A stretch of 64,000 nt of DNA. It comes from Hypholoma sublateritium FD-334 SS-4 (Eukaryota; Basidiomycota; Agaricomycetes; Agaricales; Strophariaceae). The stretch lies in contig KN817540.1 in assembly GCA_000827495.1 (NCBI GenBank), positions 66,480-130,479 on the forward strand, in the 5' to 3' direction. The stretch's first letter is position 1. Each line of letters begins with the position of its first letter. The notes beneath the pieces are model-generated. The model saw only the letters and a program-made list of their open reading frames with translations. It searched no databases and was not told where the DNA came from. This document shows positions 19,638 to 40,764 of the stretch, piece after piece. The position numbers were made by a program, and so were the translations under genes.

Positions 19638-21086
19638 ATGGCCACCGTTATCCTCGTCACCGGCGGCACCGGCCTGGTGGGCAAAGCCATCGAGCACATC
19701 ATCAACACCGAGCCAGAGGGCTCGCGCTTTGGGAAAAAAGCAGGCGAGACCTGGATATTCGCGAGCTCGTCTGAAGGGGACCTTAGGTGCGCTGGCCTCC
19801 GTCTGCCTATGTCAAGATACACGCTAAACTGCGCACCTCAGAGATCCAGCGCAGACGCGTCAGTTGTACGAAAAGTACAAGCCCACCCATGTTATCCACC
19901 TCGCAGCCCTGGGTGAGACTCGCTTGCATATTTTTCTGCCCAATCGCTTATGCTAGATCTTGCAGTCGGCGGCCTGTTCAAGAACATGAAGTATAAGGTG
20001 CGTGCATCCGTAGTCCTCTTGATCTTAACAATGACGCGCCATTCATAGCTGACGTTCCTGCGCGACAACATCCTCATCAACGATAACATCCTGCATGCGT
20101 CATACGAGCACAACGTGCAAAAGGTTGTGTCGTGCCTCTCGACATGTGTGTTCCCCGACAAGGTGGAGTACCCCCTTGACGAGACCAAGATTCACGTCGG
20201 CCCGCCGCACGAGAGCAACTTTGGCTACGCCCACGCGAAGCGTATGGTTGATGTGCAGAACCAGTAAGAAGTTCCCCAAGTGATAATTCATGGATGCTGA
20301 GCACCGTGCGTTAGCGCCTACAAGGAGGAATTTGGGTGCAACTTCACATCGGCCATCCCGACAAATGTTTTCGGACCCCACGATAACTAGTGAGTTTAGA
20401 ATAGAGTCGCGGCGGAAGTTTCTAATATATGGTTCTCCAGCGATCTCGAAGACTCGCACGTTATTCCTGGACTAGTTCACAAATGCTACCTCGCGAAGAG
20501 TTCGTCCATCACAGCCTCTGTCAGAACCTAAAGATTGATCTGAATTCAGAAAATAACACCCCTTTCGTCGTCTCTGGTACCGGAAAGCCTCTCCGCCAAT
20601 TTATCTTCTCGCAAGATCTCGCGAAGCTGTTCATTTGGCAATTGCGCGAGTATGACGACGTGGAACCCGTCATTTTGTCAGGTAATTATTGCATTAGTCA
20701 ACTCTATTTATTATCTGATCGGTTCTAGTCGGCGAGGATGAGGAAGTTAGCATCAAGGAGGTCGCTGACGCCATCGTCAAGGCCGTTGGATTCCAAGGGG
20801 AGTACAGCGTATGTCGCCTTCATTTTCCTACATCGCATTTTGTGCTGACAGCCGGCCGTAGTTCGACACCACGCGCGGCGACGGCCAGTTCCGAAAGCCG
20901 GCATCGAACAAGAAACTCTTAGGTTTGATAGGAGGGTTCGAATTCACGCCTTTCGAGCAAGGCAAGCAAATGTATATACTTTAATTTCCAGCATGCTAAC
21001 GTGACTTTTAATTAGCTTTGGACATCTCTGTGAAGTGGTTCCTTGATAACTACGCAACTGCGCGGACGGGACTACACAAGGCGTGA
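19638..21086 (+). CDS. GDP-L-fucose synthase (epimerase-reductase)
   Basis: Converts GDP-4-keto-6-deoxy-mannose to GDP-L-fucose with NADPH; cytosolic short-chain dehydrogenase fold. Amino end TVILVTGGTGLVGKAIE is the nucleotide-binding Rossmann loop (TGGxGxxG). Catalytic features: the CLSTCVFP block with Ser and Cys, and the Tyr-x3-Lys pair in NFGYAHAKRMV. Other family blocks are HVIHLAALVGGLF, NVFGPHDN, HVIPGLVHKCYLA and VSGTGKPLRQFIFSQDLAKL. At least eight short introns are required; the first joins GDLR to DPAQTRQLYEKY. The gene is followed in the same direction by the enzyme of the preceding step, 513 bp downstream. No break in the frame was found. Confidence 0.94.
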
Positions 21087-21550
21087 TTCTTTCTCTCGTG
21101 GGGAGCGAGGCTGGAATAAAACGGACTTTAGGATTAAATGCGCGATGTACTGATTGAATTACCAAAGACACTGCCCGAATAAATTCAAATACCCACTTGG
21201 TGTTGACTCGTGCCTCGTCCAATGCCAGTCTGCGGGACGATTCTCGTCGAGCCAAGTCGGTGCCAACTTGAAATAGGCTACAAGTCCTATCCATCCTCCC
21301 GATGCGCAACTTAAAAATTCATAGAAAAAACCGACGCTCATTCTGTTGTACTTTATATGACATATGCATGGAATAAGTTGGGAATAAGAGGTTGTTCATG
21401 CCCTCGACCACGAGCTATATATATAGGATCCGGGCCAAATGGGACTATCTCCGTGATAAATAATGCGGGATGCGCTCCTCGCCCAATCGTCTCCGCGTCA
21501 CCAATTCACCCTTGGTATTTATTAATTACCCAATTCTCTTCCAACATTCA

Positions 21551-21560
21551 TCTATAAAAT
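21551..21560 (+). promoter_or_regulatory. TATA box of the GDP-mannose dehydratase gene
   Basis: TCTATAAAAT, about 45 nt upstream of the start codon at 21600. Position and sequence fit a core promoter with a short leader. Confidence 0.55.
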
Positions 21561-21599
21561 CACGCTTCCCGCAGTCTTGTTCCTTGATCTCCTACCACC

Positions 21600-38607: not shown

Positions 38608-38614
38608 GTGGGCG
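38604..38614 (+). other. Polypurine-like tract before the 3' LTR
   Basis: The G-rich stretch GTTGAGTGGGCG adjoins the 3' LTR where plus-strand priming should occur. The stop codon of the polyprotein lies just inside it. Weak as a polypurine tract because it contains pyrimidines. Confidence 0.45.
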
Positions 38615-38948
38615 TGTTGTTATTTCTACTTTACGGACACTTTACTGGACGTTTACCCGTTTACCTACTTTCATTCTATCAACTCACATGATTGTTTTAC
38701 GTAACGCTCCCTTCCGTACTCTACCGAAATCCTTCGTTTACGGCTTTCCTCAGTTCGTCTAACACGTCGATACTGAGGTGAGCCTATATACCACTCTCGT
38801 TACTATATTTCTTTACTCACAGTACCTGTAGTTTATATCTTTGTTCTCAGGTACTTAACAATACATTTAGTTCGTCTAACACGTCGATACTGAGTTTATA
38901 TCTTTGTTCTCAGTTCGTGCACCCTCTCGGAATATCACTACTTCAACA
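38615..38948 (+). repeat. 3' LTR of the copia element
   Basis: 334 bp, matching the 5' LTR except for an extra T at about 38808 and a 9-bp patch near 38832, which reads TTTATATCT instead of CTATTCTAT. The target duplication ATATC follows. Confidence 0.96.
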
Positions 38949-39386
38949 ATATCAAGGCAGAGTCTTTAGTTCCCATTTTTTTAATTGCAGAGTGCCACAG
39001 ATAAAACACTTCTTTCCAGTAAGTACGTACTCAGACTCGGGCCTTGAATTTGACTCTTGCCAAGAAGCAATGACAGCGATGGAGCGCTGTGTCATTTTCC
39101 CGTACAATCCGCATTAAGTTTATCAATGATAAAGCTTAAGTAAAGAGGGTCAGAGAATCACGGCAGCCAGGGAGCGATCTGTTACGCACACCGGTACTGA
39201 CTGAGGAAGTAACTTAGCGTACATCACTCGCTCACCTCGGCGGAAAGTATTGTGCGCTCTGTATTCTACGACCAACAGCGGGAGTAGTTTACATAGTCCG
39301 AATTATTATGCCTGGGTTAACAATACGTTAGTCTACTGTCTACATACATAAGCAAGCACGATGATATGGGTGCAGGGCTGACAGCT

Positions 39387-40764
39387 CTATAGTTTTGTCG
39401 GCTTCTCGCCCGCCTCGATATCATCCATCTTGACGCGCTCGTACGACACCCGACGCGCCGCCGCCGGCGCTACGGGCGTCTCCTTGTGCTTTACCCAGGT
39501 ATACAGAATAGACCCAAGGAGGATGATCGCAATCGACGATGCACGGCCACTGCAAATCAATCAACATAAGCAAGAACCCGCAGCAAAAGACGCGCTTCAG
39601 AAACGCACGTCGTGATGATGTCGTCGAAGAGCCAGATCGCGAGGAGCGAGCCCGCGACTCCACGAACGGCCGAGGAGACCATATGTGTGATCGGCGAGGT
39701 GACCTTGATCGAGAGCAAACTCGCGATGCTCATCAGGAAGCCGATGACGCCCTGCAGCACCACCGCAGGCGATCAGCTCTCGCGCACGCGGAGAAGAAAA
39801 GGGAGGTGCGCACTGTGATGAACGAGCCCCACGCGAACGTTGCGAAGGGAGACATCGCGTCCTCCTTGACGAGGAGCTCGTCGACGCCAAAGAAGAGCTT
39901 GACCACGCCTGCGCCCTCACCCGCGAAGAGTAACAAGGGCAACAGGACAATCGCGCTGAGGAGGTTCGTGTACCACGACAGTGCGAGCGCGCTGCCGCCG
40001 ACGACGTTGAGGCTCTGCTTGATGACCACCGAGTGAAGCGCGGTGATCGCGGAGCTCGCGACACCGAAGCCGATCCCGACGAGCGAGAGGGGCGTCCCGT
40101 CGAGGAAAACGCCGACGAAGAAGCCGAAGGTGACCAGGCCACAGCAGAGGAGGATGCGCAGCGACGGGCGCGAGTGCAGGAAGATAAACGACGTGCAGAC
40201 GGTGAAGGGGAGGATCATGCCGCGCGCGACCTGGTAGAACGAGGCATCGACGTACTTGAGGGTATAGTTGCTGAAGCTGTGGCGGGGGGTCAGTGCTTGT
40301 CGGGGAGGGAGTACGTTGCACGGACCTGAGGCCGAATACATTCAAGCCAACCATGGGGATGAGGCCCTTACATGTTTCGAGGTTGAATGTAAGGCGGTCA
40401 GGGAGTAGTCGGAGGGCGTCAGATACCATGAACAGCAGAGCGGCAATGGCAAGTTGTGACCAGAGGAAAAATAGTGGGATGTCAGTGGTGTTCAGGACCC
40501 ATTTATTGCTGTAAAATCACGGCGATTAGGGGGAGTGTCTGCAAGATACGTAGCCCACATACGCCGTAACCATCTACATGACCATGGATTTTAGATGGCT
40601 CAAGAAGCAGAAATCAAAGAGAAAACTCACCGCAAGCGCTGCGACAAGATAGAATACAACCACGCCTATCTGCGAAATTGTGAGCATTCGCCGGGTGGTT
40701 TAGAGCAGCCACGTACCACCAGAGTCCTGGAGGCGGGTTTTGCGGATGCATTTTGCTGCGGCAT
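39387..40764 (-). CDS. Nucleotide-sugar transporter, GDP-fucose carrier-like (SLC35C1 type)
   Basis: Multi-pass Golgi/ER antiporter of the drug/metabolite superfamily. Start at 40764 (MPQQNASAKPASRTLV). Short introns join RTLV to IGVVVFYLVAALA, then MVTA to NKWVLN, a typical family start. Characteristic blocks are GLIPMVGLNVFGL, SFSNYTLKYVDASFYQVARG, ALSWYTNLLSAIVLLPLLL and, near the end, KVTSPITHMVSSAVRG and GSILYTWVKHKE. The last two resemble the signature near the carboxy end of animal GDP-fucose transporters (TSPLTH...AYTWV). About ten hydrophobic segments. The short acidic tail ends EKPTKL. GDP-fucose as substrate is inferred from these motifs and from the two GDP-fucose biosynthesis genes 16 kb away. 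Another GDP- or UDP-sugar, or a triose-phosphate-translocator-like role, cannot be excluded. Confidence 0.82.

Follow-up and report, generated by a model that had tools for sequence, protein, structure and literature searches.

The 64,000-nucleotide stretch of Hypholoma sublateritium FD-334 SS-4 analyzed here (hereafter the window; contig C23:66480-130479 of the 46.1-Mb, 281-contig assembly that we searched) holds three genes that may together supply GDP-L-fucose to the Golgi of this mushroom: a GDP-L-fucose synthase gene (GFUS), a GDP-mannose 4,6-dehydratase gene (GMD), and a gene for a nucleotide-sugar transporter resembling SLC35C1 (table 1). The GMD and GFUS families jointly convert GDP-mannose to GDP-L-fucose. 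The three genes were spliced by hand, each intron border being checked, and no spliced frame contains an internal stop; the models are thus intact where an earlier reading of the sequence alone (hereafter the original prediction) had placed them, strands included. The tandem arrangement of GFUS and GMD and the 513 bp between them also proved exact, and the 16 kb announced between the enzyme pair and the transporter correspond to 16,307 bp (10,962 bp once a Copia element is subtracted), with the nuance that unrelated genes lie in between. GFUS has nine introns of 47-55 bp, eight of them GT-AG and one GC-AG, whereas the six introns of GMD and the six of the transporter are all GT-AG. The GC-AG intron of GFUS lies at 20962-21015, and an intron of this type is also present in a paralogue of the transporter found elsewhere in the genome, on contig C4.

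Both enzymes have near full-length matches among solved structures. Residues 5-321 of GFUS align with the GDP-L-fucose synthase 4e5y, which we take to be the human enzyme (E 1.9e-135), the match to 1bsv, presumably the E. coli enzyme, being weaker (E 7.2e-42), and its segments SCLSTCVFPDK and YAHAKRM align with the Ser and YxxxK motifs of 4e5y, which we assume to be catalytic in this enzyme. Residues 21-364 of GMD align with 5in4, likewise taken to be human (E 2.6e-162); GMD belongs over its full length to the GDP_Man_Dehyd family PF16363, and its YxxxK motif, YGCAK, lies opposite YGAAK of 5in4. At E 0.001, GFUS has no match in the genome beyond its own locus, and the main exon of GMD scores 295.9 bits at the window locus versus at most 62 bits anywhere else. 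These identities lie far above chance and, as judged from the protein sequences, the two are ordinary enzymes; what distinguishes them from the human-type GMDS and GFUS is that the fungal genes stand in tandem. A scan of their spacer for bacterial promoters and terminators, with models that do not apply to a fungus, found nothing.

It is the arrangement that is noteworthy rather than its parts, and what deserves attention is the wide occurrence of this linkage in other mushrooms. We took the best 120 rows of the homologue list of each of the three proteins, in which each match is given with its longest contig and often a locus tag; 84, 77, and 79 rows carried both an organism and a contig, corresponding to 82, 76, and 79 organisms in the three lists. 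Two genes of one organism were counted as linked when they lay on contigs of equal size, a proxy for the same contig, and clusters of several assemblies were represented by their longest contig only. Among the matches listed, to which all counts of linkage given here refer, and for organisms present in both lists of a pair, the transporter is linked to GFUS in 25 of 30 organisms and to GMD in 23 of 29, and GFUS and GMD are linked in 20 of 27; the transporter accompanies one or both enzymes in 40 of the 49 testable organisms. Random placement in a 50-Mb genome would yield 0.94, 0.69, and 0.49 cases for the three pairs, respectively, with maxima of 7, 6, and 6 in 200,000 simulations, and a 40-Mb genome brings the first expectation to 1.17. 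When only transporter contigs of at most 300 kb are considered, transporter and GFUS are linked in 8 of 10 organisms versus 0.04 expected (8 of 11 if a 107,619-bp row of Lentinula, which was entered with its long contig, is counted).

All three genes are linked in Amanita thiersii, A. brunnescens, Stygiomarasmius scandens, Coprinopsis cinerea (whose rows bear two strain names and one contig size), C. marcescibilis, Fistulina hepatica, Gelatoporia subvermispora, and Serpula lacrymans. Individually, the evidence is strongest for Coprinellus aureogranulatus, where a 7,997-bp contig carries the transporter and GFUS, and for A. brunnescens, where one of 19,913 bp carries all three. Locus tags, which we assume to follow genomic order by convention, are one to two apart between the transporter and GFUS in three Amanita species and Coprinellus, and more widely spaced in Stygiomarasmius (23, transporter to GFUS) and A. 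inopinata (44, transporter to GMD). Rows of Psilocybe cubensis (transporter list) and Mycena chlorophos (an enzyme list) were excluded because they lacked a contig; other rows excluded from that same enzyme list were four of Rhizoctonia solani, the second of Pleurotus ostreatus, the second of Mycena albidolilacea (on a contig of equal size), and that of Sparassis latifolia. Two entries were merged across names by equal contig size, namely Termitomyces T112 with "cryptogamus" and a GMD row named Sparassis latifolia, which was assigned to S. crispa; leaving both out gives 24 of 29 for transporter and GFUS and 19 of 26 for GFUS and GMD. Linkage beyond random placement, as looked for in a metabolic gene cluster, is thus observed, and this linkage is old. 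Persistence in other Agaricomycetes, which the original prediction had proposed as a check, is borne out in this way; its description of the linkage as unusual is not, the arrangement appearing to be the common state among those mushrooms for which a comparison was possible.

With regard to the transporter, the spliced protein is identical to the predicted protein HYPSUDRAFT_200984 (100% identity and 100% coverage; 453,821-bp contig), contains both of the segments from which a resemblance to SLC35C1 had initially been read, SFSNYTLKYVDASFYQVARG and TSPITH...YTWV, and has the ten-helix drug/metabolite-transporter fold of nucleotide-sugar transporters. A sequence search of solved structures gave no relative (six unrelated weak matches), and a search of the same structures with the profile of its family gave no match. 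The comparison with characterized carriers was made with sequences of human SLC35C1 and Vrg4 that we take to be correct, the only two outside references in the tree. SLC35C1 matches 12 members of the transporter family at E 4e-35 to 9e-44, versus E 0.002 or worse for three further TPT-domain proteins from this genome, and is about 31% identical to the window transporter over 330 residues. In the tree, SLC35C1, the 12 family members, and the C4 paralogue group together (support of 87/89 at the fork), to the exclusion of Vrg4 and the three other TPT-domain proteins, a grouping that carries a long-branch warning; the tree does not separate the C4 paralogue from the family of the window transporter. 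The carriers compared were of the GDP-mannose, SLC35C2-like, and triose-phosphate types, so that the expected placement with SLC35C1 and apart from other carriers holds for these types.

Among the residues compared, an arginine stands at the position of R147 of SLC35C1 (R112 in the window transporter) in 33 of 33 aligned relatives, R147 being a residue affected in the disease CDG-IIc according to PMC6508934. At T308, the threonine position also implicated in CDG-IIc, the relatives carry Ser in 31 of 33 cases, Gly in one, and Phe in one, and the Asn of the FYNN-type motif is kept in 33 of 33. Compared with human SLC35C1 and Drosophila Gfr, the latter described as a Golgi GDP-fucose transporter in PMC10481521, the window transporter is alike in fold class and in the R147 equivalent and unlike SLC35C1 in having WYTN instead of FYNN, Arg for Lys in transmembrane helix 9 (TM9), and linkage to both biosynthetic genes. 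On this basis, it is a plausible fungal SLC35C1 that probably resides in the Golgi; because the genome holds a second SLC35C1-like gene, we infer rather than assert that its substrate is GDP-fucose.

Table 1. Features of the window and related loci of the same genome (aa, amino acids; positions without a contig name are those of the window)
Feature	Position	Strand	Description
GFUS, GDP-L-fucose synthase (GFUS/GMER/TSTA3 type)	19638..21086	+	spliced model, 10 exons, 327 aa
Spacer between GFUS and GMD	21087..21599	.	513 bp exactly
GMD, GDP-mannose 4,6-dehydratase	21600..23079	+	spliced model, 7 exons, 374 aa
SLC35C1-like nucleotide-sugar transporter, candidate GDP-fucose transporter	39387..40764	-	spliced model, 7 exons, 349 aa
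Second SLC35C1-like transporter gene	about C4:654200-655560 (match C4:654570-655374)	-	splices to open frame
O-FucT-domain gene	C47:258606-260213	+	PF10250, 45 bits over the whole frame, cut-off 31.5
P-type cation ATPase gene, unrelated	28746..32939 (approximate)	-	PF00690, PF00122, PF13246, and PF00689 on separate frames
Copia-type long terminal repeat retroelement	33604..38948	+	assigned to Copia by inspection of the frame; makes up 5.3 kb of the 16.3-kb gap
Stop-to-stop frame	7500-11024	-	1174 aa; no Pfam match at E 0.01
Argonaute gene	12930-14872	-	ArgoN match in one frame; matches to PAZ and ArgoL2, and a weak one to Mid, in a second frame
Mre11 DNA-binding domain gene	46521-47132	+	beyond the transporter
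Sodium/hydrogen exchanger gene	53626-55047	-	beyond the transporter

Taken together, we consider with a probability of roughly 0.72 that this is a GDP-L-fucose supply locus of mushrooms, whose three genes are ancestrally linked and whose transporter feeds the Golgi. In the cytosol, GMD would turn GDP-mannose into GDP-4-keto-6-deoxymannose, which GFUS would epimerize and reduce to GDP-L-fucose; the transporter, judging from its family, its conserved residues, and its linkage, may then exchange GDP-fucose for GMP into the Golgi, where fucosyltransferases could spend it on fucogalactan-type polysaccharides or glycoproteins. The three genes would have been linked in the ancestor of the Agaricales, and probably already in its common ancestor with the Boletales and Polyporales, the linkage having since loosened and been largely kept, as the shared-size contigs and close tags observed today indicate, possibly under selection. 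The GDP-fucose supply proposed by the original prediction is supported, since, as far as the checks could be run, we found neither a grouping of the transporter with the other carriers nor an absence of linkage in all relatives. A more elaborate proposal, to which we give somewhat less than even odds, is that of an ancestral Agaricomycete cluster of dehydratase, synthase, and dedicated Golgi transporter maintained by selection, in which the transporter would, as far as our searches show, be the first of its kind in fungi to be placed by both sequence and genomic context, the TM9 arginine, in place of the animal lysine, would mark a fungal branch that binds its substrate by a distinct chemistry, and the fucose would go to mushroom fucogalactans.

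Several observations weigh against the proposed supply locus. Unrelated genes and a retroelement separate GMD from the transporter, and we accordingly speak of a neighborhood and not of an uninterrupted cluster. The genes are unlinked, or not seen to be linked, in 5 of 30 organisms for transporter and GFUS, 6 of 29 for transporter and GMD, and 7 of 27 for GFUS and GMD; Crucibulum laeve, Mycena amicta, Leucoagaricus sp., and Phanerochaete sordida are among the unlinked cases, as are Lentinula, Pleurotus pulmonarius, and Ephemerocybe, but the assemblies of the last three may be mixed. If the orders (Agaricales, Boletales, Polyporales) are as we presume, the linked cases are mostly Agaricales, and linkage of the transporter to an enzyme is seen beyond them only in Serpula, Gelatoporia, Laetiporus, and Somion, the contig being short (189,611 bp) in Laetiporus alone. 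Besides, our null model is random placement and not background gene-order conservation, and since the two differ, selection can only be suggested as what keeps the genes together. As for the residues, the lysine of SLC35C1 TM9 is an arginine in 33 of 33 relatives, and the R147-position arginine is not exclusive to the family, another gene of this genome, on C15, having it too.

The C4 paralogue also counts against the proposed supply locus and opens an alternative that we regard as unlikely, namely that the linkage is leftover ancestral gene order without function and that this paralogue is the main GDP-fucose transporter, the window one carrying something else. Indeed, the paralogue splices to an open frame, is 41-43% identical to the window transporter over two stretches, shares the TM9 arginine, the R147-position arginine, and the FYNN-type Asn, and matches SLC35C1 at least equally well, with a slightly higher score (149 vs. 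128 bits). Large syntenic blocks are moreover known in some Agaricomycetes, such as the 350 kb around matA conserved between Coprinopsis cinerea and Laccaria bicolor described in PMC3140503. However, linkage is found across many genera despite altered internal order, and the aligned relatives of the window transporter all keep the arginine at R147 and the Asn of the FYNN type, even if the paralogue has both. A matA block as the source of the linkage was set aside: PF01432, the mitochondrial intermediate peptidase family, which we take to be a marker of the matA flank, has matches on contigs C13 and C22 and none on C23, a weak argument as the scaffolds are unjoined. Less probable still is a broad GDP-sugar carrier that would move GDP-mannose as well as GDP-fucose instead of being dedicated to the latter; one family member (P0053) does match Vrg4 at E 1.4e-4, but the window transporter itself reaches only E 0.14 and is without the GALNK motif of Vrg4.

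A search of the genome for fucosyltransferases, suggested by the original prediction, was successful in part. A single O-FucT-like gene, on C47, was retrieved, and it is the sole candidate transferase found for the use of GDP-fucose. Its protein, of which no second copy was found in the genome, shows by eye an N-terminal membrane segment, a type II topology, and an HLRSGD motif; searched exon-wise, PF10250 scores 26.5 bits there, below the cut-off, in the only place found in the genome. GT10 (PF00852), plant-type XG_FTase (PF03254), and FUT8 (PF19745) gave no match in the genome, an absence that is unproven as the control genomes were silent too. No glycosyltransferase was found by Pfam among 39 open reading frames chosen from the window outside the three genes, a selection that short exons or unchosen frames may escape. 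The mushroom lectin CCL2 binds a glycoepitope that PMC3355094 reports as absent from fungi and that PMC4461262 identifies as the alpha1,3-fucosylated core of N-glycans; this speaks against such a use of GDP-fucose. Fucogalactan and other fucose-bearing polysaccharides are known from mushrooms, as reported in PMC10608111, in whose main text neither "GDP" nor "fucosyltransferase" occurs.

Between GMD and the transporter, the Copia element is young: its terminal repeats (33604-33936 and 38615-38948) share 328 of 333 aligned bases, it is flanked by a 5-bp target duplication (ATATC), and it contains a 1535-aa stop-to-stop frame (34000-38607). The gap also holds the ATPase gene and open reading frames without a Pfam match, and no tandem repeats were found from 23000 to 42000. 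Upstream of the enzyme pair lies a gene with a PAPS-reductase domain, which we read as FAD-synthase-like; the Argonaute gene, the long frame without a Pfam match, and two genes beyond the transporter are given in table 1.

GDP-fucose synthesis in fungi, Basidiomycota included, is covered by PMC10481521 and PMC8092308 in their accessible parts: the former describes de novo synthesis in Dikarya, subfamilies of O-FucT, and fungal homologues of TCDB 2.A.7.16, discusses SLC35C1, and calls fungal fucose transporters experimentally unverified, and the latter predicts fucose across fungi; in the same parts, genomic linkage of these genes is unmentioned. In Ganoderma lucidum, GMD and FS are both expressed, and the transporter is absent from the table concerned (PMC10055881). 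A literature search of titles and the openings of abstracts, with few subscription journals covered, found no published account of linkage between GMD, GFUS, and the transporter.

Fungal metabolic clusters that include a transporter are known, as in the GAL and nitrate clusters, where pathway enzymes likewise adjoin their cognate transporter; the present locus differs from them in serving a primary nucleotide-sugar route, in its organellar transporter, in its loose spacing, and in the unrelated genes in between. From this perspective, the conserved linkage names a candidate fungal GDP-fucose transporter and a clean knockout target, and the locus offers a tractable eukaryotic case of a primary nucleotide-sugar route that would be kept together with its organellar carrier.

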